From the NCBI GenBank assembly GCA_947173895.1, contig CAMWGU010000015.1:1-57330 (forward strand): a stretch of DNA of 57,330 nt. Reading direction: 5' to 3'. This stretch comes from an uncultured Bacteroides sp. (GTDB lineage Bacteria > Bacteroidota > Bacteroidia > Bacteroidales > Bacteroidaceae). A model generated the notes under the pieces. It made no database searches. It was not told where the DNA came from and saw only the letters and a program-made list of their open reading frames with translations. The position numbers and the translations under genes are program-made. Of the stretch, positions 3,054 to 52,072 are shown piece after piece (positions within the stretch are counted from its first letter, which is position 1; every line of letters starts with the position of its first letter).

Positions 3054-3887
3054 ATGTTATTAGCATCTGAAACCAACATCCAACTAACTAATGCGTTAGA
3101 GAAATTGATTGACTCCGGTATTCAACTAGGAACAAAAGTATTAGGAGCTCTTCTTATTTTTGTGATTGGAAAATTTCTTGTAAACTGGTTGAACAAACTT
3201 TTTGCCCGTATCTTGGAAAAAAGGAAAGTAGAACCCAGCATCCAATCGTTTTTGAAAAGCATGGTAAACATATTATTACTCATCATGCTGATTCTTGCCG
3301 TGATCGGGAAACTGGGAATTGAACTCACAGGATTCGCTGCCCTACTTGCTTCCGCAGGTGTGGCCATCGGTATGGCATTATCCGGTAACTTACAGAACTT
3401 TGCCGGAGGGCTGATCATCTTATTATTCAGACCATACAAAGTAGGCGATTTTATTGAAGCTTCCACAGGCGCATCGGGTACGGTAAAAGAAATACAGATA
3501 TTCCATACGATTCTTGTCACCGCCGATAACAAGATGGTATACGTACCTAACGGTGCTATGAGTAGCGGGGTGATTACGAATTACAATAAACTGGACACAC
3601 GCCGTATAGAATGGAACTTCGGAATAGAATATGGAGAGGATTATAATAAAGTCACACAAATATTGCAGGAAATCATTGCTCATGATAAGCGCATACTTAC
3701 TACTCCAACTCCATTCATTGAACTAGGCGAACTTGCTGCCAGCAGTGTCAACATAAAAGTCCGTGTATGGGTGAAGAGTACTGATTATTGGGATGTATTT
3801 TTCAGTATGAACCAGACTGTTTATACCACATTTAACAAAGAATGTATCAATTTCCCATTCCCTCAACTTACTGTGCATCAAGCATAG
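3054..3887 (+). CDS. Small-conductance mechanosensitive channel, MscS type (short form)
   Basis: An inner-membrane channel that opens under membrane tension to release solutes in hypo-osmotic shock. About 277 residues with three N-terminal membrane helices. The third is the Gly/Ala-rich pore helix (AGVAIGMALSGNLQNFAGG) leading into the conserved RPYKVGDFIEA beta-domain, followed by a soluble C-terminal vestibule. The ATG at 3054 is preferred over an upstream in-frame TTG at 3048. It lies 46 bp after the Sua5-like gene, and a short hairpin with 7-bp arms at 3925-3944 follows it. A second, longer MscS homologue lies near 47 kb. Confidence 0.9.
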   Translation: MLLASETNIQLTNALEKLIDSGIQLGTKVLGALLIFVIGKFLVNWLNKLFARILEKRKVEPSIQSFLKSMVNILLLIMLILAVIGKLGIELTGFAALLASAGVAIGMALSGNLQNFAGGLIILLFRPYKVGDFIEASTGASGTVKEIQIFHTILVTADNKMVYVPNGAMSSGVITNYNKLDTRRIEWNFGIEYGEDYNKVTQILQEIIAHDKRILTTPTPFIELGELAASSVNIKVRVWVKSTDYWDVFFSMNQTVYTTFNKECINFPFPQLTVHQA

Positions 3888-34797: not shown

Positions 34798-35808
34798 TCA
34801 GATTTGATTAAGAAAGCGCTCTATATCGGCTTCCAGTTTCTTATAAAGAGGAGATAATTTATAGCCGGTATGCTTGCGGAGTACAATCTCTACTCCCAAC
34901 TGCCGGTGCCGATAACTGGTCAATTCGTTATGAAACTGCACATCATGTTCGGCCAAAGCTTTGATCTCCTCCTCGCGTTCATGGCGCAATACATTACAAA
35001 CCGGGACCAGCAATTTCATGACTACCCTATCCATTATATGATGACCCTGAATGAACATATAAACATTCTCTTCGTTCACTCCTAACCGGGTAAACTCCAC
35101 TTTCAGCGCTTCTATCTCTTCCAGCTCTTTCGGGTGCCTATGCTCCAGTTCCCGCAATTTGCGCTTTACCTTACGCTCCATATGCTCCAGGCTTCGCTCG
35201 GGATAAAAGACATCCACTTTTTCCAGTTGCACGTATGAGCAAAAATGCAACAATGAAAATTCAGACAGATTATGTTTCCTATAAAACCAAACAGACCATA
35301 CAAACAACGGATAAGCAATCCGAGAATACATACGCATAAAAGCTGCAAAATCTATCAGCGGATGATCATTCAGTGTCGCCATGACGCATACTTCATGCAA
35401 GGCTTCAGCATAACACTGGTAATTCTCTATAGCATAAGCATACGTATGAAAAACATACCTATTATTAATAATGTAGTGCGATGTCTGTGTAGCTCCCTGC
35501 AACAAATAGTCATAATCGCTGTCCACACAAGCAATCATGTTCTGCCCCAACCGAGCTCCCAACTCATTCATCAGCACCGTTTTCTTCCCTTTGGCCAAGC
35601 TTGTTTTAGAAGGAAGCATCACCTCGAAATAACGGGTTTCGTCCTCATATTCCCCCAACACAGTGCGCCAAAATGAAACATCATCATAACTCTCCACATA
35701 GGCTATGATCTTACGACGCGACTTTCTAGGTTTCAGCCTATTGGCTGCACCAATATATAAAGAGGACAGATTTTCAGACAATCTCTTTCCCATACCATGG
35801 TTGTTCAA
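34798..35808 (-). CDS. DUF4435 protein with Toprim-like motif (AriB-like effector candidate)
   Basis: 336 residues. Near the N-terminus, IIAYVESYDDVSFW holds a conserved Glu39, and MIACVDSDYDYLL holds Asp96, Asp98 and Asp100. Together they give the Glu then Asp-x-Asp pattern of Toprim nucleases. The rest is helical and charged. DUF4435 proteins paired with an ABC-type ATPase form the PARIS anti-phage system (AriA/AriB) and relate to split OLD nucleases. Here the ATPase gene is 6 bp upstream on the same strand. A defence role is inference; an RNA or DNA cleavage activity is plausible but not shown. Confidence 0.75.
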   Translation of the reverse strand: MNNHGMGKRLSENLSSLYIGAANRLKPRKSRRKIIAYVESYDDVSFWRTVLGEYEDETRYFEVMLPSKTSLAKGKKTVLMNELGARLGQNMIACVDSDYDYLLQGATQTSHYIINNRYVFHTYAYAIENYQCYAEALHEVCVMATLNDHPLIDFAAFMRMYSRIAYPLFVWSVWFYRKHNLSEFSLLHFCSYVQLEKVDVFYPERSLEHMERKVKRKLRELEHRHPKELEEIEALKVEFTRLGVNEENVYMFIQGHHIMDRVVMKLLVPVCNVLRHEREEEIKALAEHDVQFHNELTSYRHRQLGVEIVLRKHTGYKLSPLYKKLEADIERFLNQI

Positions 35809-35814
35809 ATGGAT

Positions 35815-36636
35815 TTATCGTGTAATGTCGCTCACCTCGGTCACCGCATCCAGCCAACCGTCCATAATCACAGCCGGCGAATGAGTCGTTAAAATGATTT
35901 GCACATTTGGATTCAATTCGCGTATCAAGGCTATCAGCCTCTGCTGCCATTCTACATGCAGGGAAATCTCGGGTTCGTCCATAAAGAGCACCCCCGGACG
36001 ATTGTCTTGCACCAGCACAGTCAGCAGAATGACCAGAATTTGCTTCTCGCCCGATGACAACTGATAAGGATAAAGCGTGTCCCCATCCTGCTCGAACAAT
36101 ATTTCGTTGTTTGTCCGGATAATCTTCTTACCCGTTTCACCAAACAGGCTATCCATCAGATCCTGGAATTTCGTTTTGGGATAAGACATGCGAGCCGCCC
36201 GTTGCTGTCCGTCAGACTCTCCTGAAGTAAGACATTCTATAATCCGATTACCCACATTCACCTGATAATCCAGATAACGCCGCTGTAATTGATAAAGTTG
36301 CCAGTCCAACTCCGTCTTTACGTTCTTGTCTGCCATTTTTTCCAAAAGGTCCGAATGAATCAAAGGCCGGTCAAAACTGCGGATCACATCAAAATGTATC
36401 AGCGTGGCGTCTTCGGGAGAGAAGACAAAATGCACGCCTGGAGCCGATCCGTTGCTCAATGCCCCGCCTTCCAGTGCGGTCAGGCTGTTTACCGACCTGT
36501 TCAAAATTGTACTTTTGCCGATACCATTCACTCCGCTCAGAATATTGACATCCGGACGAAGCTCCCACGAGATGTCCTTGCGGCCCCAAAGCCGTTTTAT
36601 CTCGATACGCTTTATATAATCAGCTTGTCTTTTCAT
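35815..36636 (-). CDS. AAA/ABC-type ATPase (OLD/AriA-like), partner of DUF4435
   Basis: 273 residues, compact. Walker A GVNGIGKST is at residues 35-43, a QQRAARMSYPKTKFQDL segment lies mid-protein, the ABC signature is LSSGEKQ, Walker B is VLFMDEPEISLH with the catalytic Glu, and the switch His is in LTTHSPAVI. This is the SMC/RecF/OLD type of ATPase without a long coiled coil. It is shorter than the AriA proteins I recall, so it may be a minimal relative. Gene order ATPase then DUF4435 matches PARIS. It could also be a repair-type ATPase with a Toprim partner. Confidence 0.8.
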   Translation of the reverse strand: MKRQADYIKRIEIKRLWGRKDISWELRPDVNILSGVNGIGKSTILNRSVNSLTALEGGALSNGSAPGVHFVFSPEDATLIHFDVIRSFDRPLIHSDLLEKMADKNVKTELDWQLYQLQRRYLDYQVNVGNRIIECLTSGESDGQQRAARMSYPKTKFQDLMDSLFGETGKKIIRTNNEILFEQDGDTLYPYQLSSGEKQILVILLTVLVQDNRPGVLFMDEPEISLHVEWQQRLIALIRELNPNVQIILTTHSPAVIMDGWLDAVTEVSDITR

Positions 36637-36853
36637 CTTTCGATTGATTTACTCCTAAGCAAAGATATAAAATATATGAAAAACATCCTACATTTACACC
36701 GTTATTTTTAAGGCCAATGACCGCATCCGGATCTACAAGTCCCTCCTGCCGTATAATTAAAGTTTTTCTGCCCGCAAGTGCTGTCTCTGCGGTCGGCATG
36801 ATAAACTATGGCGTCTACCCGTTTCTGCCGGCATATTTTATAAGAACTGATCG

Positions 36854-37702
36854 CTATTTTCGCTCCAACTCGTCCAGCCAAGCCTCCGTATCTTTCCAAA
36901 GCTGTCGGGCCTGTGGGTGATTCATATACTTTTCTCTTACCCTCCTTGGTTTGCCCGAAGCGAACATCTGTCCTGTCACTCCTTCCCAACGTTCGTCCAA
37001 AAGCAGACCAACTGCCGTTGCTGCTCCCTGTTTCGGAGTACGGATGCAAGGACGGAACAGCAGATCGGTCAACGGATCGAACCACATGTCCATACGTATG
37101 ATGTTGGTAGAGACCACACCCGGATCGGCCGCATTGACAGTGATTCCGTATGCCTTCAGCTTTTCAGAAAGCTCACGGGTAAACAACCATAAGGCCAGTT
37201 TCGTATTGCTGTAAACGGGAATACGCAAAAAAGTCCCTTTCTTTCCCCGAGCGAAAAATTCGGGAGTTATTTTCCCAATGGCATAAGTGCATGAAACCAT
37301 ATTTACGATCCGGGTTCCCCGACCCATCAGAGGAAGCAACTTCGTTGTTAGCAAGAAGGGAGCAACATAATTCACCGCCACGGTATGTTCCAGTCCGTCT
37401 TCAGTAATTTTCAGTCCGGTGGTGCTCATTGTACCTGCATTATTCATCAGCAGATCAATGTGTTTTCCCCGTCCCAACAATTCATCGGCCACATTAGTCA
37501 CAGACGCCATCGAAGCCAAATCGATCTGTCGTACCTCTATTTCTTGGTTTCCAGTCTCTAAAATCAACTGGTTTCTGCGCTCCTCTCCCTTGAAAAGCGT
37601 ATAACACAGCATAATCACATGATAGCCTGCTTGTGCCACAGCACGGGTTATCTCGGTTCCCATCCCTCCATCGGCACCTGTTATAATTGCTAGTTTACTC
37701 AT
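36854..37702 (-). CDS. Short-chain dehydrogenase/reductase, probable hydroxysteroid dehydrogenase
   Basis: 282 residues. The cofactor motif TGADGGMGTEI is at residues 8-18, NNAG at 87-90, catalytic Ser137 in NMVSC, and Tyr164/Lys168 in YSNTK, so the enzyme should be active. It resembles retinol-dehydrogenase-like SDRs. Its start overlaps the stop of the old-yellow-enzyme gene by 4 bp, and a 5-alpha-reductase gene lies upstream. A three-gene set of 5-alpha-reductase, 5-beta-reductase and 3-beta-hydroxysteroid dehydrogenase has been described in gut Bacteroidales that make isoallo bile acids, and this gene fits the dehydrogenase. Position and stereochemistry of the reaction are inferred. Confidence 0.82.
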   Translation of the reverse strand: MSKLAIITGADGGMGTEITRAVAQAGYHVIMLCYTLFKGEERRNQLILETGNQEIEVRQIDLASMASVTNVADELLGRGKHIDLLMNNAGTMSTTGLKITEDGLEHTVAVNYVAPFLLTTKLLPLMGRGTRIVNMVSCTYAIGKITPEFFARGKKGTFLRIPVYSNTKLALWLFTRELSEKLKAYGITVNAADPGVVSTNIIRMDMWFDPLTDLLFRPCIRTPKQGAATAVGLLLDERWEGVTGQMFASGKPRRVREKYMNHPQARQLWKDTEAWLDELERK

Positions 37703-38958
37703 CGGTTCTCCATTTTTTTTATTTCACGTTCCAAACAAGGAGGCAACGGCTCTTTCAGGTGTTGGTGACATGCCATGTCAATGGTATACATCCTGGCAAT
37801 GCAATAGTTGCTGTGACCGCAACTGCAACGCGCCTTCTCTTCAGCCTTCATCCGATTGACAAACGCCGGTTCGTTCAGCAACGCCCGTCCCATCTGCACA
37901 AACTCGAATCCATCCTCCAACACCTCGTCTATCTTCTCACGAGACACCAGTCCTCCTACATAAACCAAGGGAATCTCTTTAATTTCCTTCCGAAACCTTA
38001 AGGCATCTTCCAGAAAATAGGCTTCTTTGAAAGGTACGGTGGGGATCATCCACCGGCCTACCATGCGCACACCATATTTCAGCCACCAGCAATTCATGTA
38101 ATGTGTCATGCTTCTTACAGGCATCGCTCCCCGCATGACATACATGGGAGCCTTGCTCACAAACCCTCCGCTCAGCACCAGCGCATGCGCTCCGTCATGC
38201 ACCAGACGTTTGGCCACCTGTAACGCTTCATCTATTTCCATTCCTCCCTTAAATCCGTCGCACATATTGGTCTTTACCAAGACAGCCATATCATTGCCCG
38301 CAGCTCGCATCACCTCTTCCATCACCATATCCATAAAACGCATCCGATTCTCGAGCGACCCGCCAAATTCATCTTTGCGACGGTTTGTGTAAGGAGACAA
38401 GAACTGGCTGATAAGGTAGCCGTGCCCCGCATGAACTTCCACCGCATCGAATCCTGCCTCGCGCGCCAGATGTACCGACTGTCCGTATGCCTTCGCTAGT
38501 TGTGACAACTCCTCCTTACGCAATCCGCGCACCCAAGTGGGCGAATAAAGGTTGAAACCGGAAGACGCTCCGACAGGTGTCACTCCGCAAATACTCTTAT
38601 GAGACATATTTCCACAATGCCCCAACTGAATGCTTACGGCAGCTCCTTCCTTATGAACCGCATCGGTTATTTCTTTCAAGCCCGACACGATCTCAGGGCG
38701 CATCCACAATTGTCTGTCAAAAGACAAACCACTCCGATCCACGGCCGCATAGGCCACAGTGGTCATCCCCACCCCGCCTGCTGCCACTGAGCAATGATAC
38801 TCCTTCAACTGACTGGAAGGCGCATTGCCCGGACACATGCTTTCAAAAGCCGCCGAACGAATGGTGCGGTTGCGCAGAGTCAGCGGTCCGATAGAAGCGG
38901 AAGTAAATAATTTAGAATTCTTCATTTCTGCATTATGTTTAGTGTTCATGCCTCCCAT
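37699..38958 (-). CDS. Old-yellow-enzyme-family NADH:flavin reductase, probable steroid 5-beta/ene reductase
   Basis: 419 residues (starts at 38949 or 38925 also possible). An OYE TIM barrel with IGPLTLRNRTIRSAAFE, QLGHCGNMSHKS, the active-site EVHAGHGYLISQFLSPYTNRR, and a C-terminal FVQMGRALLNEP FMN site. Near the end CSCGHSNYC and AC suggest an iron-sulphur cluster as in BaiCD-type or 2,4-dienoyl-CoA reductase barrels, but the NAD(P)/FAD domains of those are absent. Its context beside 5-alpha-reductase and SDR genes points to reduction of a 3-oxo-delta-4 steroid or bile acid. The substrate is inferred, not shown. Confidence 0.82.
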   Translation of the reverse strand: MGGMNTKHNAEMKNSKLFTSASIGPLTLRNRTIRSAAFESMCPGNAPSSQLKEYHCSVAAGGVGMTTVAYAAVDRSGLSFDRQLWMRPEIVSGLKEITDAVHKEGAAVSIQLGHCGNMSHKSICGVTPVGASSGFNLYSPTWVRGLRKEELSQLAKAYGQSVHLAREAGFDAVEVHAGHGYLISQFLSPYTNRRKDEFGGSLENRMRFMDMVMEEVMRAAGNDMAVLVKTNMCDGFKGGMEIDEALQVAKRLVHDGAHALVLSGGFVSKAPMYVMRGAMPVRSMTHYMNCWWLKYGVRMVGRWMIPTVPFKEAYFLEDALRFRKEIKEIPLVYVGGLVSREKIDEVLEDGFEFVQMGRALLNEPAFVNRMKAEEKARCSCGHSNYCIARMYTIDMACHQHLKEPLPPCLEREIKKMENR

Positions 38959-38992
38959 CCCAAGGAGACAGTCTTTCCTAATTTTTATAGAT

Positions 38993-39757
38993 TCAATAAA
39001 TAAAAGGAATCATCCTCTTCCTGTTTCCCACAGCCTCTCTGCCGAATTCCTCGCGATAGCGGTTCCGGATAGAATGGGCACGCGGAGCCAGATTGGCAAA
39101 CGTCCACAATACAAACACCCATGCTGCAGGCGAACAAGTCAGCACAGCAAATCCAATCCATTCCAGCCATTCGCCCAAATAATTGCCTGAAGTGACATAA
39201 CGGTACATTCCTTTCTGAGGCAAATAATGGCGTGTATCACCCGGTTTGCGTAAATGACGAATCACACTGTCGGAATGTAGATTAATCCCCATTCCGGCAA
39301 AGAACAATCCCGTACCAAGCCAAAACAAAGGAGTATCGAGCCAGCCATCCGCATAAAGCGTATCCGGAGCCAGATAGAACAACCACTCACCCTGCATCAA
39401 ACCGTTCAGCACGTTAAAGGCCACCCCCATCAACATAATAGAAAGAGGCATCCGACTTTTTCCTTTCAGCAAAAAAGGGAAAATGAAAGAGCGCTGAAAA
39501 TAGTGCAACTCAAAGAAAAGAAAAAAAAGGAAGGGAACCGTGTTGAAACGCACCGGACTGTTCCACCACAGATACAGCATCACAAAAAACACCGGAGCTT
39601 CCATCAGAATCCAGCCCGCTTTGTTGCCTACAGACATGCCCCATTTCGCTGTGCGAAACATTCCATATCCGGCACGCACATAGTAAAGTGCTACAAACAC
39701 AACCACTGCCAATATAGACATGGTCAATAACAAAAGATCAAAAGTCTGTTGTCCCAT
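38993..39757 (-). CDS. 3-oxo-5-alpha-steroid 4-dehydrogenase (SRD5A-like membrane reductase)
   Basis: 254 residues with about six or seven membrane helices. It is strikingly like animal and bacterial steroid 5-alpha-reductases: Glu53 in LMEAPVFFVM and Tyr86 in FFELHYFQRSFIFPF correspond to the substrate-contacting Glu and Tyr of SRD5A2. The NADPH region GINLHSDSVIRHLRKPGD and YVTSGNYLGEWLEWIGFA is conserved, and the protein ends RMIPFIY. It should reduce the delta-4 bond of 3-oxo steroids or bile acid intermediates to the allo (5-alpha) form. First gene of a three-gene unit; the next gene begins 34 bp on. Confidence 0.92.
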   Translation of the reverse strand: MGQQTFDLLLLTMSILAVVVFVALYYVRAGYGMFRTAKWGMSVGNKAGWILMEAPVFFVMLYLWWNSPVRFNTVPFLFFLFFELHYFQRSFIFPFLLKGKSRMPLSIMLMGVAFNVLNGLMQGEWLFYLAPDTLYADGWLDTPLFWLGTGLFFAGMGINLHSDSVIRHLRKPGDTRHYLPQKGMYRYVTSGNYLGEWLEWIGFAVLTCSPAAWVFVLWTFANLAPRAHSIRNRYREEFGREAVGNRKRMIPFIY

Positions 39758-39939
39758 ATTCGTTCCTCCTTCTATCAGATTCTGTTTTCTAACAATTCAT
39801 TCCCAAAATTAAAGAATAATTTCAAAAGAGACAACGATTCAGTTTCTTTTTGCCGCAAAGTATGCAAATTCTCCCGATATAATGACCAACAGGACACTAA
39901 GTAAAGACTGTTCTCCTACAAAAAAAAAAATTAAATTCA

Positions 39940-39970
39940 TTTCTAATTAACAATTAAAAGCGTACTTTTG
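39940..39970 (+). promoter_or_regulatory. Promoter of the S41 lipoprotein gene
   Basis: TTTC (39940-39943), 19 bp, TACTTTTG (39963-39970). Transcription would begin near 39977, so the in-frame ATG at 39968 is not usable and 39992 is the start. Confidence 0.6.
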
Positions 39971-39991
39971 AACTCAATAAAATCAATCATT

Positions 39992-41779
39992 ATGAAACAA
40001 ATCTATGACCTCCGTCTTTTTCTATTCTTATCAGTTGTCATACTACTCTTCACTTCGTGTAGCGATCATGACAACAACAATGAGCTTCTTCCCGGCGTGA
40101 CCTATACAAACTGGACAGAAGGGGCCCCCCTTGAAATGGATAAAAGCAACACCCTGACCATCCACTTCAATGCCGCTGCTCCATGGACGGCTTCTGTCGC
40201 TTCGGGAACAGATTGGTGCATTTTATCCCCCACTTCCGGAAGCAAAGGACAAAGTTCCTTCACTATAACTGCCAATACCGAAGCTACTACCCAACGAACC
40301 GCAAAAATCATCATCCGCATAGACGGATATCAATCTACCAGCCTCGAAGTGACCCAGAAACCGGAAGGAGACAGAGAGGTGAATGAAAAGGTAGACAAAT
40401 ACCTGAGCAGCATGTACCTTTGGAACGATGAATACAAAACATTGAAACTTGATTACAACAAGGACTATGACGCTTTCTTTTATGACGCTTTAGGCAGCAT
40501 GACCACCAACACACTAGACAACAAACCATATACTGGGAATGATGGCAAGACTTACCACTCCCTTTTCTCCTACATCACTAAAAAAAATCCCGCCCGATCA
40601 GCACTAAGTTATCCACTACAGGAAAAAGAAAAAGAATATAGTTTCGGCATTATTGGAATGACAGTTGTCATTATCGACAGCTACGGACATTACGCTTTCT
40701 GCATACAAGGTGTCTACCCCGATTCGCCGGCATCACATGCCGAAATAAAACGTGGGACTCTCATAAGCGAGATCAATGGCAATAAAATTACCAAAGACAA
40801 CTACATAGACCTGTATTGGGATTTACTATATCCAGAAAGCCCAATTGCTTTAAACATAAAAGAACTTACCTTCACGGAAAATCTGACAGACGGAATGAAA
40901 GAATATACCATGACAGCAGAAGCCATATACAAGAATCCTGTCATTTATCAAGATATTATAGAAAAAGAAGGGGCAAAAAGAATTGGATATTTGGTCTATA
41001 CAGAATTTGATGCCGGATATGACGATACGCTATTTGAAGTGTTCAAGAACTTCAAAAGCCGGAATATCACCGACCTGATTCTCGACCTACGCTACAATGG
41101 AGGCGGACATGTGATTTCCAGCAACTTCATAGCATCCTGCATCGCCGGAAGTGCCTATCAAGATGCTGTTTTCATAAAATACCGATACAATAAAGAAAGA
41201 ATGCAAAAGCAAAACAATAAAAAATCAGAAGAGAAGTCCGTATATTCATTTTATCAAAACCTGAACACCTCCTTATCGGCCTGCGATTTAAGTTTGAGAC
41301 GAATATATTGCTTAGTAGGCAGAGCCACCGCATCGGCCAGCGAATTGCTCATCAACACTCTGCTCGGTATAGACATAGACGTCATATTGATAGGAGAAAA
41401 TACCACCGGAAAAAATGTAGGTATGGAACCAGAAGAGATTTCTGTAGACGAAACCACCTACGAAGTATACCCCATTACGTTCCAGACTTACAATGCCAAA
41501 GATAACGGAGATTACGAAAACGGATTCATTCCCAACATTCTGATGAATGAAAATGATATAAATAATGATGGATATTTTGATAAATACATCGAATTCGGTC
41601 ATCCGGACGAACCGCTGTTAAGCAGAGCTATTCAAGAAATAACCGGACAAGCATCTCCCCGAACACGTAGCGCAGCAAGCAAAGGATTCAAGAGCTATGC
41701 CATAGAAACGCCACACATATTCCGGCCGGGATACCAAAGCATGATAAAATCCGTCTATGACACAGACATTGAACGATAA
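39992..41779 (+). CDS. S41-family peptidase lipoprotein with BACON and PDZ domains
   Basis: 595 residues. Signal peptide and lipobox TSCS (MKQIYDLRLFLFLSVVILLF then TSC) with a following Asp-rich stretch, so it is probably surface exposed. Next come a BACON-type beta domain (LTIHFNAAAPWTASVASGTDWC to LEVTQKPEG), a PDZ-like domain (GVYPDSPASHAEIKRGTLISEING), then the peptidase S41 core with LILDLRYNGGG and the nucleophile Ser in GRATASASELL. BACON domains in Bacteroidales bind glycoprotein or mucin-like targets. It likely processes secreted or host proteins at the cell surface. The helicase downstream is separated by 55 bp. Confidence 0.9.
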   Translation: MKQIYDLRLFLFLSVVILLFTSCSDHDNNNELLPGVTYTNWTEGAPLEMDKSNTLTIHFNAAAPWTASVASGTDWCILSPTSGSKGQSSFTITANTEATTQRTAKIIIRIDGYQSTSLEVTQKPEGDREVNEKVDKYLSSMYLWNDEYKTLKLDYNKDYDAFFYDALGSMTTNTLDNKPYTGNDGKTYHSLFSYITKKNPARSALSYPLQEKEKEYSFGIIGMTVVIIDSYGHYAFCIQGVYPDSPASHAEIKRGTLISEINGNKITKDNYIDLYWDLLYPESPIALNIKELTFTENLTDGMKEYTMTAEAIYKNPVIYQDIIEKEGAKRIGYLVYTEFDAGYDDTLFEVFKNFKSRNITDLILDLRYNGGGHVISSNFIASCIAGSAYQDAVFIKYRYNKERMQKQNNKKSEEKSVYSFYQNLNTSLSACDLSLRRIYCLVGRATASASELLINTLLGIDIDVILIGENTTGKNVGMEPEEISVDETTYEVYPITFQTYNAKDNGDYENGFIPNILMNENDINNDGYFDKYIEFGHPDEPLLSRAIQEITGQASPRTRSAASKGFKSYAIETPHIFRPGYQSMIKSVYDTDIER

Positions 41780-48447: not shown

Positions 48448-49341
48448 ATGAGTTTAAAAATTGTAGTACTGGCAAAACAAGTTCCTGACACACGCAATGT
48501 CGGGAAAGACGCCATGAATGCTGACGGTACAATCAACCGTGCAGCACTTCCGGCTATCTTCAATCCGGAAGACCTGAACGCACTGGAACAGGCGCTCAGA
48601 CTGAAAGACACACATCCCGGATCTACTGTAACCATTCTGACAATGGGCCCCGGCCGTGCAGCCGAAATCATTCGCGAAGGCTTATACAGAGGAGCAGACA
48701 ATGGATATTTATTGACCGACCGCGCTTTTGCGGGTGCCGATACCCTGGCCACTTCATACGCCATCGCTACCGCCATCCGCAAGATCGGCGAATATGACCT
48801 GATCATCGGCGGACGCCAGGCCATCGATGGCGACACAGCCCAAGTGGGACCACAAGTGGCCGAAAAACTGGGATTGAGCCAGATTACTTACACCGAAGAT
48901 ATTCTGAATGTAGACGAAACTGCTCGCCGCATCACCGTAAAACGCCACATTGACGGCGGAGTGGAAACAGTAGAAGGCCCTTTGCCCATTGTACTGACAG
49001 TAAACGGAAGTGCAGCTCCCTGCCGTCCGCGTAACGCCAAATTATTACAGAAATACAAACGCGCTTTGGGCGCACAGGAAAAAGCAGCCATCACCAAAGA
49101 AGGCGCTGAACTTCCCTACGCTGAATTATATGAAAAATTCCCTTACCTGAATATCACTGAATGGAATGTGGCCGATGTAGAAGGAGACACCAAGCAATGC
49201 GGTCTGTCCGGATCGCCCACCAAGGTGAAGAAGATAGAGAACATAGTCTTCCAGGCCAAAGAAAGCAAGACTCTGACAGGAAGCGACCACGATATAGAAG
49301 ATTTGATTGTAGAACTGTTAGCTAACCATACAATAGGATAA
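48448..49341 (+). CDS. etfB: Electron transfer flavoprotein, beta subunit
   Basis: 297 residues. ETF-beta signature: KIVVLAKQVPDT at the N-terminus, GTINRAALPAIFNPEDLNALEQALRLKD, and the nucleotide-binding IIGGRQAIDGDTAQVGPQVAEKL. With EtfA it carries electrons between acyl-CoA dehydrogenases and other redox partners. It begins a three-gene operon with etfA (5 bp gap) and an acyl-CoA dehydrogenase. Whether it is a bifurcating type cannot be decided from this view. Confidence 0.96.
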   Translation: MSLKIVVLAKQVPDTRNVGKDAMNADGTINRAALPAIFNPEDLNALEQALRLKDTHPGSTVTILTMGPGRAAEIIREGLYRGADNGYLLTDRAFAGADTLATSYAIATAIRKIGEYDLIIGGRQAIDGDTAQVGPQVAEKLGLSQITYTEDILNVDETARRITVKRHIDGGVETVEGPLPIVLTVNGSAAPCRPRNAKLLQKYKRALGAQEKAAITKEGAELPYAELYEKFPYLNITEWNVADVEGDTKQCGLSGSPTKVKKIENIVFQAKESKTLTGSDHDIEDLIVELLANHTIG

Positions 49342-49346
49342 CGATT

Positions 49347-50366
49347 ATGAATAATGTATTTGTATATTGCGAGATTGAAGGCACCACTGTGGCCGATGTG
49401 AGTCTCGAACTTTTGACAAAAGGCCGCAAATTAGCTAACCAGTTGGGTTGCCAGCTTGAGGCAATCACCGCCGGAACCGGCCTTACAGGAATTGAAAAGC
49501 AAGTATTGCCCTACGGAGTGGACAAACTTCATGTGTTCGATGCTCCGGGGCTGTTTCCTTATACCTCACTCCCCCACACCTCCATTCTGGTGAACCTGTT
49601 CAAAGAAGAAAAGCCACAAATCTGCCTGATGGGGGCCACTGTAATTGGCCGCGACCTGGGTCCGCGCGTTTCCTCCGCCCTGACCAGCGGACTGACAGCC
49701 GACTGCACCCAGCTGGAAATAGGATCGCACGAAGACAAGAAAAACAGTATCACCTACGAGAACCTGCTGTATCAGATCCGTCCTGCTTTCGGCGGTAACA
49801 TCGTGGCAACCATCGTAAATCCCGAACACCGTCCGCAGATGGCAACCGTACGCGAAGGAGTGATGAAAAAAGAAATACTAGACGAAAACTACAAGGGCGA
49901 AGTAGTAAGCCACGATGTAGCCAAATTTGTTCCTGAAACCGACTATGTGGTGAAAGTCATCGACCGACACGTGGAAAAGGCCAAACATAACCTGAAAGGC
50001 GCACCTATCGTGATTGCCGGAGGCTATGGTATGGGATCTAAAGAAGGTTTCGACAAACTGTTCGAACTGGCCAAAGAACTTCACGCCGAAGTGGGTGCCA
50101 GCCGTGCAGCCGTTGATGCAGGCTATGCCGACCATGACCGCCAAATCGGACAAACCGGAGTCACCGTCCGTCCTAAGTTGTATATTGCCTGCGGTATTTC
50201 CGGACAAATCCAGCACATCGCCGGTATGCAGGATGCAGGCATCATCATCTCAGTGAACAACGATCCGAACGCTCCTATCAATGCTATTGCCGACTATGTA
50301 ATCAACGGCACAGTGGAAGAAGTCGTTCCGAAATTGATTAAATATTATAAAAAGAACAGTAAGTAA
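49347..50366 (+). CDS. etfA: Electron transfer flavoprotein, alpha subunit
   Basis: 339 residues. C-terminal FAD-binding region with GGYGMGSKEGFDKL, VGASRAAVDAGYADHDRQIGQTG, and the conserved YIACGISGQIQHIAGM, then SVNNDPNAPI. It forms the heterodimer with EtfB and binds FAD. The stop overlaps the start of the acyl-CoA dehydrogenase gene by one base (TAATG), so translation is coupled and the three products are likely made together. Confidence 0.96.
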   Translation: MNNVFVYCEIEGTTVADVSLELLTKGRKLANQLGCQLEAITAGTGLTGIEKQVLPYGVDKLHVFDAPGLFPYTSLPHTSILVNLFKEEKPQICLMGATVIGRDLGPRVSSALTSGLTADCTQLEIGSHEDKKNSITYENLLYQIRPAFGGNIVATIVNPEHRPQMATVREGVMKKEILDENYKGEVVSHDVAKFVPETDYVVKVIDRHVEKAKHNLKGAPIVIAGGYGMGSKEGFDKLFELAKELHAEVGASRAAVDAGYADHDRQIGQTGVTVRPKLYIACGISGQIQHIAGMQDAGIIISVNNDPNAPINAIADYVINGTVEEVVPKLIKYYKKNSK

Positions 50367-52072
50367 TGGCAAACTTTTATACCGATATACCGGAACTCAA
50401 ATATCACTTGAACAATCCGATGATGGAGCGCATCTGTCAACTGAAAGAGCGCAACTATAGAGACAAAAACGAGTTCGACTATGCACCGCAAGATTATGCC
50501 GATGCCATGGATTCGTATGATAAGATACTGGAAATCACAGGTGAAATAACGGGAGAAATCATCGCTCCCAATGCCGAAGGAGTGGACGAAGAAGGTCCTC
50601 GCTGCGAAAACGGACGTGTGGAATATGCTTCAGGAACCAAACAAAACCTGGATGCAATGGTAAAAGCCGGACTGAACGGCATGACCATGCCTCGACGTTT
50701 TGGAGGCCTGAACTTCCCCATTACCCCCTACACCATGTGTGCGGAAATCGTTGCCGCAGCCGATGCAGGCTTCGGAAATATCTGGTCCTTGCAGGACTGT
50801 ATCGAAACACTGTATGAATTTGGAAACGAAGACCAGCATAGCCGTTTCATTCCCCGCATCTGTGCCGGAGAAACAATGTCTATGGACTTGACCGAACCCG
50901 ATGCAGGCTCCGACCTTCAATCAGTGATGCTGAAAGCCACTTTTGATGAAGCCAACAATTGCTGGCGCCTGAACGGTGTGAAACGCTTCATCACCAACGG
51001 CGATGCCAACCTCCATCTGGTGCTGGCACGTAGCGAAGAAGGTACCAAAGACGGACGTGGCTTGTCCATGTTCATTTATGATAAGAACGAAGGTGGTGTG
51101 GACGTGCGCCGCATCGAGAACAAACTGGGCATCCACGGTTCGCCTACTTGCGAACTGGTGTACAAGAACGCGAAAGCCGAACTTTGCGGCGACCGTAAGC
51201 TGGGCTTGATCAAATACGTCATGGCATTGATGAATGGTGCGCGTTTGGGTATCGCAGCCCAGTCCGTAGGCTTATCACAAGCCGCCTACAACGAAGGACT
51301 GGCATACGCCAAAGAACGCAAGCAGTTTGGAAAAGCCATCATCGACTTTCCGGCAGTATATGACATGTTGGCCATAATGAAAGCCAAACTGGACGCAGGC
51401 CGCGCATTGCTCTACCAGACTTCACGCTATGTAGACATCTATAAGGCTTTGGATGATATTGCCCGCGAACGCAAACTAACTCCCGAAGAACGTCAGGAAC
51501 AAAAGAAATATGCCAAACTGGCTGATGCCTTCACACCGCTAGCCAAAGGCATGAACTCGGAATATGCCAACCAAAACGCCTACGACTGCATCCAGATTCA
51601 CGGCGGATCGGGCTTCATGATGGAATATGCCTGCCAGCGGATCTACCGCGACGCACGCATCACCAGTATTTACGAAGGTACTACCCAGCTGCAAACCGTA
51701 GCCGCCATCCGCTACGTGACCAACGGTTCATATATAGCCACTCTGCGCAACTACGAGGCTGTTCCTTGCAGCGAAGAGATGCAGCCGCTGATGAACCGCG
51801 TGAAAGAAATGGCCAACAAGTTTGACGCCTGCACCAACGCCGTCAAGGAAGCTCAGAACCAAGAACTGCTGGACTTCGTGGCACGCCGCCTGTACGAAAT
51901 GGCTGCCGTATGTGTCATGTCGCACCTGATCATACAAGATGCGACCAAGGCACCCGAACTGTTTGCCAAGTCGGCCCAGGTTTATGTGAACTATGCAGAA
52001 GCCGAAGTGGAAAAACACTTCAACTTTATCCGCAAGTTCCAAGCAGACGAACTGGAGGCTTACCGCAAGTAA
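50366..52072 (+). CDS. Acyl-CoA dehydrogenase, large form
   Basis: 568 residues, longer than the usual 380 because of an added C-terminal helical region, as in the large Bacteroidales and beta-proteobacterial forms. Visible motifs: MSMDLTEPDAGSDLQSV, RLNGVKRFITNGDANLHLV (FAD and substrate site), YAKERKQFGKAI, IQIHGGSGFMMEY, and IYEGTTQLQT with the probable catalytic Glu. It oxidises acyl-CoA and passes electrons to the EtfAB pair encoded just upstream. Chain-length preference is unknown. A terminator follows at 52132. Confidence 0.93.
   Translation: MANFYTDIPELKYHLNNPMMERICQLKERNYRDKNEFDYAPQDYADAMDSYDKILEITGEITGEIIAPNAEGVDEEGPRCENGRVEYASGTKQNLDAMVKAGLNGMTMPRRFGGLNFPITPYTMCAEIVAAADAGFGNIWSLQDCIETLYEFGNEDQHSRFIPRICAGETMSMDLTEPDAGSDLQSVMLKATFDEANNCWRLNGVKRFITNGDANLHLVLARSEEGTKDGRGLSMFIYDKNEGGVDVRRIENKLGIHGSPTCELVYKNAKAELCGDRKLGLIKYVMALMNGARLGIAAQSVGLSQAAYNEGLAYAKERKQFGKAIIDFPAVYDMLAIMKAKLDAGRALLYQTSRYVDIYKALDDIARERKLTPEERQEQKKYAKLADAFTPLAKGMNSEYANQNAYDCIQIHGGSGFMMEYACQRIYRDARITSIYEGTTQLQTVAAIRYVTNGSYIATLRNYEAVPCSEEMQPLMNRVKEMANKFDACTNAVKEAQNQELLDFVARRLYEMAAVCVMSHLIIQDATKAPELFAKSAQVYVNYAEAEVEKHFNFIRKFQADELEAYRK

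Follow-up and report, generated by a model that had tools for sequence, protein, structure and literature searches.

What a gut bacterium might do with a steroid 5-alpha-reductase encoded next to two further oxidoreductases is the question raised by contig CAMWGU010000015.1 (C15) of assembly GCA_947173895.1, a stretch of 57,330 nucleotides from an uncultured Bacteroides sp. that was analysed in its full length and is referred to here as the window. On its minus strand, the list of open reading frames gives, in this order, an SRD5A-type 5-alpha-reductase (5AR), a flavoenzyme of the old yellow enzyme family (OYE) and a short-chain dehydrogenase/reductase (SDR). It is highly likely that this trio forms an operon for steroid A-ring remodelling, of the Bacteroidales kind made up of 5AR, 5-beta-reductase (5BR) and 3-beta-hydroxysteroid dehydrogenase (3-beta-HSDH). 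The bacterium very probably uses it to alter the shape of bile acids and of steroids related to them. The genome (3.26 Mb, 94.8% complete) is taken to lie within the genus of P. vulgatus (Phocaeicola), since G010, a genome assigned to the window's genus, carries its 5AR at 2545071, the coordinate of the 5AR in P. vulgatus ATCC 8482. The trio is thus what Phocaeicola has of a cluster known from earlier descriptions of gut Bacteroidales, not a new system. The evidence gathered here concerns gene content, active-site residues, orthology, synteny and all-or-none co-occurrence.

Layout and conservation of the trio

The first-pass annotation had placed three minus-strand genes at this locus, the last two of which overlap by 4 bp, and both the coordinates and the ATGA in which the OYE stop and the SDR start are merged (37699-37702) confirm this layout (Table 1). 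The Pfam scores of Steroid_dh, Oxidored_FMN and adh_short are all well above their cut-offs. The OYE probably starts at the ATG at 38925 (codon 12), near the start of the P. vulgatus protein and of most sister proteins, which widens the gap to the 5AR from 34 bp as annotated to 67 bp.

The same arrangement is found in related organisms. P. vulgatus ATCC 8482 (NC_009614.1, L003) carries orthologues with identities of 85, 90 and 86% for 5AR, OYE and SDR, respectively, with the order kept, and a Parabacteroides-labelled contig (L007) carries an orthologous trio with the gene order of the window. This orthology and synteny, together with the presence of the cluster in reviews, bear out the earlier statement that a trio of this kind has been described in gut Bacteroidales. 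In 31 loci fetched via the 5AR from GTDB-species genomes, by a search that works through short exact peptide patterns and therefore favours close relatives, the OYE lies directly downstream of the 5AR in 29, the other two being Flavobacteriales contigs (L031 and L032). Some genomes sit in several of the sets used here (G010 is also L003, for example, and G019 is also L004), so that the counts are not independent.

Within the genus, the inheritance of the trio is all-or-none. In a sample of 40 genomes, the window genome included, 23 are other members of the same genus; with absence judged at E-values of 0.001 for 5AR and OYE and 1e-30 for SDR, 17 of these have all three genes adjacent and in the same order, and six have none (two of these at least 98% complete, four 54-84% complete). 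The orthologue of the window SDR, called type B below, adjoins the OYE in 17 of the 17 other same-genus genomes with a 5AR, one of which (G019) has a split OYE frame. Across the order, a 5AR match is present in 63 of 295 Bacteroidales genomes, the window genome included. The OYE adjoins the 5AR in 27 of the 29 non-own loci of the best matches (exceptions L059 and L068) and in one (L090) of 20 further loci; in the remaining 19, 5AR identity is 33-40% in 14 and 48-52% in five (L086-L089 and L091). Given that the 14 loci with the most distant 5AR have no adjoining OYE and that nearly all of the best matches have one, linkage to the OYE marks one 5AR clade, with exceptions.

Members of the trio are broken in some genomes or assemblies: the OYE is split in P. 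sartorii (L004, 6801-8046), the type-B SDR is split in L020 (6134-6855), and the 5AR of L030 is in two pieces with a gap (3251-3880). One further trio (L092, 6001-8884) lies on a 140-kb circular record, OY726067.1, labelled as a Phocaeicola massiliensis plasmid, which may be a mislabelled chromosomal piece.

Table 1. Features of the window discussed in the text.
Feature	Position	Strand	Description
5AR (SRD5A-type 5-alpha-reductase)	38993..39757	-	254 aa; Steroid_dh PF02544, E=6.2e-40
OYE ("5BR"), single-domain FMN ene-reductase/dehydrogenase	37699..38958	-	at most 419 aa; Oxidored_FMN PF00724, E=6.5e-52
SDR type B, putative 3-beta-HSDH	36854..37702	-	282 aa; adh_short PF00106, E=1.9e-31
TAnnTTTG element TAATTTTG, Bacteroides-type -7	39804..39811	-	begins 54 nt ahead of the 5AR start codon
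ATPase (273 aa) and DUF4435 protein (336 aa)	34798-36636	-	PADLOC: AriA E=4.3e-59, AriB E=3.7e-70 (PARIS defence system)
Promoter-like element TATCTTTG of the ATPase/DUF4435 genes	36660-36667	-	read by eye

Active sites of the three enzymes

The nearest solved structures to the 5AR are PbSRD5A (7c83, E=3e-46) and human SRD5A2 (7bw1, E=4.7e-40), both aligned over nearly the whole length. The first-pass annotation had described an SRD5A-like enzyme with its Glu and Tyr kept, and indeed Glu53 and Tyr86 are present in 32 of 32 aligned rows, as the equivalents of SRD5A2 E57 and Y91. Excerpts of PMC7815742 propose that these two SRD5A2 residues anchor the C3 ketone and also give the roles of the NADPH-site residues. 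Of the latter, Asn159, Asp163, Arg170, Asn222 and Arg226 are kept in 31 of 32 rows, the exception being a gap that is expected in the row of L030, which holds the best segment only (1-131). The window enzyme differs from both solved proteins in the QEY signature, where PbSRD5A and SRD5A2 carry Gln and where, according to the same excerpts, Gln mutants of SRD5A2 are inactive. Met52 takes this place in 32 of 32 rows, and MEY is read in 85 of 85 homologous loci, which are not all independent and include Flavobacteriales and one Nocardia. The replacement therefore looks like a common bacterial form, and the idea that it marks a new bile-acid clade was dropped. The Gln is probably not required in the Bacteroidales branch, given that a Bacteroidales 5AR is genetically tied to the formation of allolithocholic acid (alloLCA) in excerpts of PMC10382948, and Met52 does not exclude activity because the MEY group includes close relatives with reported activity.

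In the OYE, His176, His179 and Tyr181 are present in 30 of 30 rows. Tyr181 is aligned to residue 167 of E. coli FadH (Met counted), and we equate the latter with Y166, the catalytic residue that PMC12238238 names for 1PS9; on these residues the ene-reductase site is intact. The C-terminal Cys residues claimed in the first-pass annotation are also there: Cys378 in 24 of 30 rows (Ser in five, one gap), Cys380, Cys386 and Cys397 in 29 of 30 each, with the missing row being the gap of a shortened row (L004, by its coordinates), and in the same region His382 in 28 of 30. Because a profile alignment matches Cys378, Cys380 and Cys386 to three cysteines of the FadH motif CIGCNQAC, with the fourth unmatched, an Fe-S or metal site in the C-terminus is plausible.

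The OYE thus shares with the BaiCD/FadH-type Fe-S flavoenzymes an N-terminal FMN barrel, the active-site Tyr and a C-terminal Cys group at the equivalent location, and differs from them in its Cys spacing (Cx1Cx5Cx10C) and in having no FAD/NAD(P)H half. The absence of this half, which had been noticed from the start, follows from the length of 419 aa and from a match to the BaiCD NCBIfam model whose best stretch covers positions 1-261 of 642, with a score of 176.9 bits where the cut-off is 825. A tree was built from the 25 cluster OYEs, FadH, six generic OYEs from the order and L100, an unlinked OYE homologue that is 56% identical and whose genome also encodes a 5AR. In it, the cluster OYEs are grouped with L100 at 100/99 support and are separated from FadH and the generic OYEs; the tree program warns of long branches, and some outgroup branches are very long. 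The cluster OYEs are therefore not placed among unrelated reductases, which would have spoken against the first-pass reading, in a tree from which BaiCD and the hormone 5-beta-reductases are absent. Judged from sequence, the cluster OYEs are a distinct clade with a conserved C-terminal Cys/His patch and without the FAD/NAD half.

The SDR has the motifs TGADGGMG (8-15) and NNAG (87-90), and the Ser-Tyr-Lys triad reported earlier as intact is seen as Ser137, Tyr164 and Lys168 in 20 of 20 rows compared, in line with the classical SDR pattern. Its top model is a PRK06197-type SDR with a score under the cut-off, and none among the best 25 of the 197 NCBIfam models matched reaches its cut-off; the nearest solved structure is 3rd5, an entry without stated function. 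A second kind of SDR, type A, was found in the same slot of related loci. It has 262-274 aa where the whole frame was read and is 19-34% identical to type B in local alignments. Among the best 25 NCBIfam models, neither type is matched by one for a specific HSDH, save a 7beta-HSDH model for one type-A protein, with a score far under the cut-off. Among the 31 fetched loci, type B alone follows the OYE in 14, and type A follows it directly in 13, six of which have type B after type A (split in L020); the others are L025, where the contig ends 332 nt past the OYE, and L026, both with neither type, and the two loci without OYE. In the 29 Bacteroidales loci of the best 5AR matches, which are short and were read with a 1.5-kb flank, a type-A start follows the OYE in 12, a type-B start in seven and neither in 10. 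The slot across Bacteroidales is thus occupied by A, by B, or by A then B, and in the genus of the window by B directly after the OYE.

Proposed reactions and alternative readings

In excerpts of PMC10382948, the 5AR gene shares a cluster with genes for a predicted 3-beta-HSDH and for an NADH:flavin oxidoreductase, the latter a hypothesised 5-beta-reductase. Disruption of the 5AR in P. merdae abolishes alloLCA derivatives, and P. merdae, O. laneus and B. (Phocaeicola) dorei convert 3-oxo-delta4-LCA to isoalloLCA, according to the same excerpts. Enzymes or a gene cluster for the conversion of 3-oxoLCA to isoalloLCA in Bacteroidetes are also given in parts of PMC11271093, PMC8850271 and PMC12697870, the first and last of which state a 5-beta-reductase in the Bacteroides pathway; PMC9645264 contains an indirect pathway with 5BR, 5AR and 3-beta-HSDH, and a bile-acid pathway is likewise in print in PMC12292970, these too as excerpts. 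The window has the same three families in one cluster, namely an SRD5A-type 5AR, a BaiCD/BaiH-like flavin oxidoreductase and an SDR. It differs from the published cluster in belonging to another species, and the likeness was drawn from published descriptions of the cluster. The primary papers on the cluster are reportedly those of Li et al. 2021 and Sato et al. 2021. The Firmicutes enzymes BaiP and BaiJ likewise yield allo bile acids, and an excerpt of PMC9645264 sets them apart from the membrane-associated Bacteroidetes 5-alpha-reductases. A literature search returned no paper joining OsrB, steroid and gut bacteria.

The reactions of the trio are taken from this literature on other species, from which we infer substrate, direction and stereochemistry in the window organism. 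The FMN-dependent OYE would act on a 3-oxo-5-beta bile acid, for example 3-oxo-LCA, and convert it to the 3-oxo-delta4 compound by removing two hydrogens at C4-C5, or in reverse it would reduce delta4 substrates to 5-beta products. In the membrane 5AR, Tyr86 and Glu53 would hold the C3 ketone, NADPH would donate a hydride to C5 on the alpha face, and Glu53 would protonate C4, giving a flat 5-alpha (allo) ketone. The SDR would reduce the C3 ketone to the 3-beta alcohol, which is the isoallo bile acid. Hormones of the 3-oxo-delta4 type, such as testosterone and progesterone, would enter at the 5AR step. By analogy, the system would be an A/B-ring epimerase and more than a series of reductases, given that the flavoenzyme of the published pathway acts as a dehydrogenase that forms delta4 from a 5-beta substrate. 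Of the steroid/bile-acid reductase operon proposed in the first-pass annotation, the assignment to this pathway is supported by orthology and synteny, and the word reductase would be too narrow.

The window genome, at 94.8% completeness, has no match to the bile-salt-hydrolase (CBAH) family and no close homologue of the type-A SDR (the best match, to the L028 protein, is 30% identical), absences that are not certain because the assembly is incomplete. Given both, the organism may depend on a supply of free, 3-oxidised bile acids from other bacteria in the gut.

Several observations weigh against A-ring remodelling by this particular set of activities. PMC12238238 describes a hormone-reductase signature, Asn166/Ser171 of ci2350, and a bile-acid-reductase one, Tyr or Ser/Glu; with the active-site Tyr as anchor of the alignment, the OYE has Gly180 and Gln185 at these positions in all 30 rows and fits neither. 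Seven loci with a 5AR that is 48-58% identical have no adjoining OYE (L059, L068, L086-L089 and L091), with the genome of L091 carrying an OYE on a different contig. The type-B SDR is a putative 3-beta-HSDH, with a 3-beta stereochemistry that is not legible from sequence, and the third step is not fixed, given the 13 of 31 related loci in which type A comes directly after the OYE.

The alternative that survives best is that the operon mainly inactivates or remodels host delta4-3-ketosteroid hormones (testosterone, progesterone, glucocorticoids), with bile acids secondary. This overlaps with the favoured reading, since the enzymes are identical, and seems rather unlikely as the main role. SRD5A-family enzymes act on testosterone and progesterone (excerpts of PMC7815742), and excerpts of PMC12589954 report that in women Bacteroidales 5-alpha-reductase genes are associated with the dihydrotestosterone/testosterone ratio, and refer to earlier work on 5-alpha-reductase activity in B. 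uniformis and Odoribacteraceae. However, the reviews assign the three-gene cluster to bile acids (parts of PMC10382948 and PMC11271093), and the OYE lacks the hormone-type residues. The same mismatch with both described 5-beta-reductase groups, together with a delta6-3-ketosteroid reductase family reported in a part of PMC12238238, would fit an OYE that is not the 5-beta enzyme and reduces another ring double bond (delta1 or delta6), leaving the rest to 5AR and SDR. This is improbable in view of the 5-beta-reductase placed in the Bacteroides pathway by the excerpts of PMC11271093 and PMC12697870, an assignment that in PMC10382948, as excerpted, is only hypothesised for the flavin oxidoreductase.

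A third alternative is an ene-reductase/ketoreductase operon of broad use, acting on enones and sterols from the diet or from plants, with incidental steroid-like chemistry. OYEs and SDRs are often promiscuous, the nearest solved OYEs are NADPH dehydrogenase/YqjM-type enzymes, and the nearest solved SDR is one without stated function. This is nevertheless the most improbable reading given the 5AR partner, the all-or-none inheritance, the published activity of the cluster and the separate group formed by its OYEs.

Genomic surroundings and the two SDR types

The TAnnTTTG element upstream of the 5AR, which we take to be the Bacteroides -7 consensus, is a possible promoter of the operon. It is present in seven of nine compared 5AR upstream regions, as a raw count, and begins 45-46 nt upstream of the 5AR in L002-L006 and at -30 in L012; it was not found in the other two of the nine, L007 and L013. 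A sigma-70 scan gave six sites against a shuffle mean of 9.4, that is, fewer, and is uninformative for Bacteroides promoters.

The downstream AAA ATPase and DUF4435 genes were considered as members of the operon and dropped, since they have their own promoter-like element. The ATPase is present in 22 of the 23 other same-genus genomes (75-93% identity) and therefore behaves like a core gene of the genus, not like a mobile defence island; it adjoins the trio in only four (G002, G010, G015 and G019) and occurs in all six genomes without the trio. In P. vulgatus, the gene between SDR and ATPase was likewise dropped as a fourth member, as it encodes a membrane protein on the opposite strand, resembling an EamA-type transporter on a reading of its translation. 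The divergent neighbour of the 5AR, about 210 bp from its start, encodes an S41 peptidase with a BACON domain (39968-41779, plus strand). Some 9 kb from the operon, also on the plus strand, lie genes for a protein with an electron-transfer-flavoprotein (ETF) domain (48448-49341) and an acyl-CoA dehydrogenase (50366-52072), and an ETF is conceivable as electron partner of an OYE without FAD half.

What could be new at this locus is small, namely the two SDR types, for which no dedicated literature search was made, and the clade of stand-alone, Cys-bearing OYEs. It may tentatively be proposed that clusters of this family fall into two or three product types set by the SDR after the OYE. Type B, found in the window and elsewhere in Phocaeicola and Bacteroides, would lead to 3-beta (isoallo) products; type A, as in Muribaculaceae- or Alistipes-labelled contigs, would have the other stereochemistry or act as the oxidising 3-HSDH; and loci with both would run the complete inversion from 3-alpha,5-beta to 3-beta,5-alpha. 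The stand-alone OYE would in each exchange electrons via an outside carrier, for example ferredoxin or ETF. The all-or-none pattern of the trio provides a clean genetic marker inside the genus, and the two SDR types lead to a hypothesis, simple and open to test, on the stereoisomer that a given species would make.

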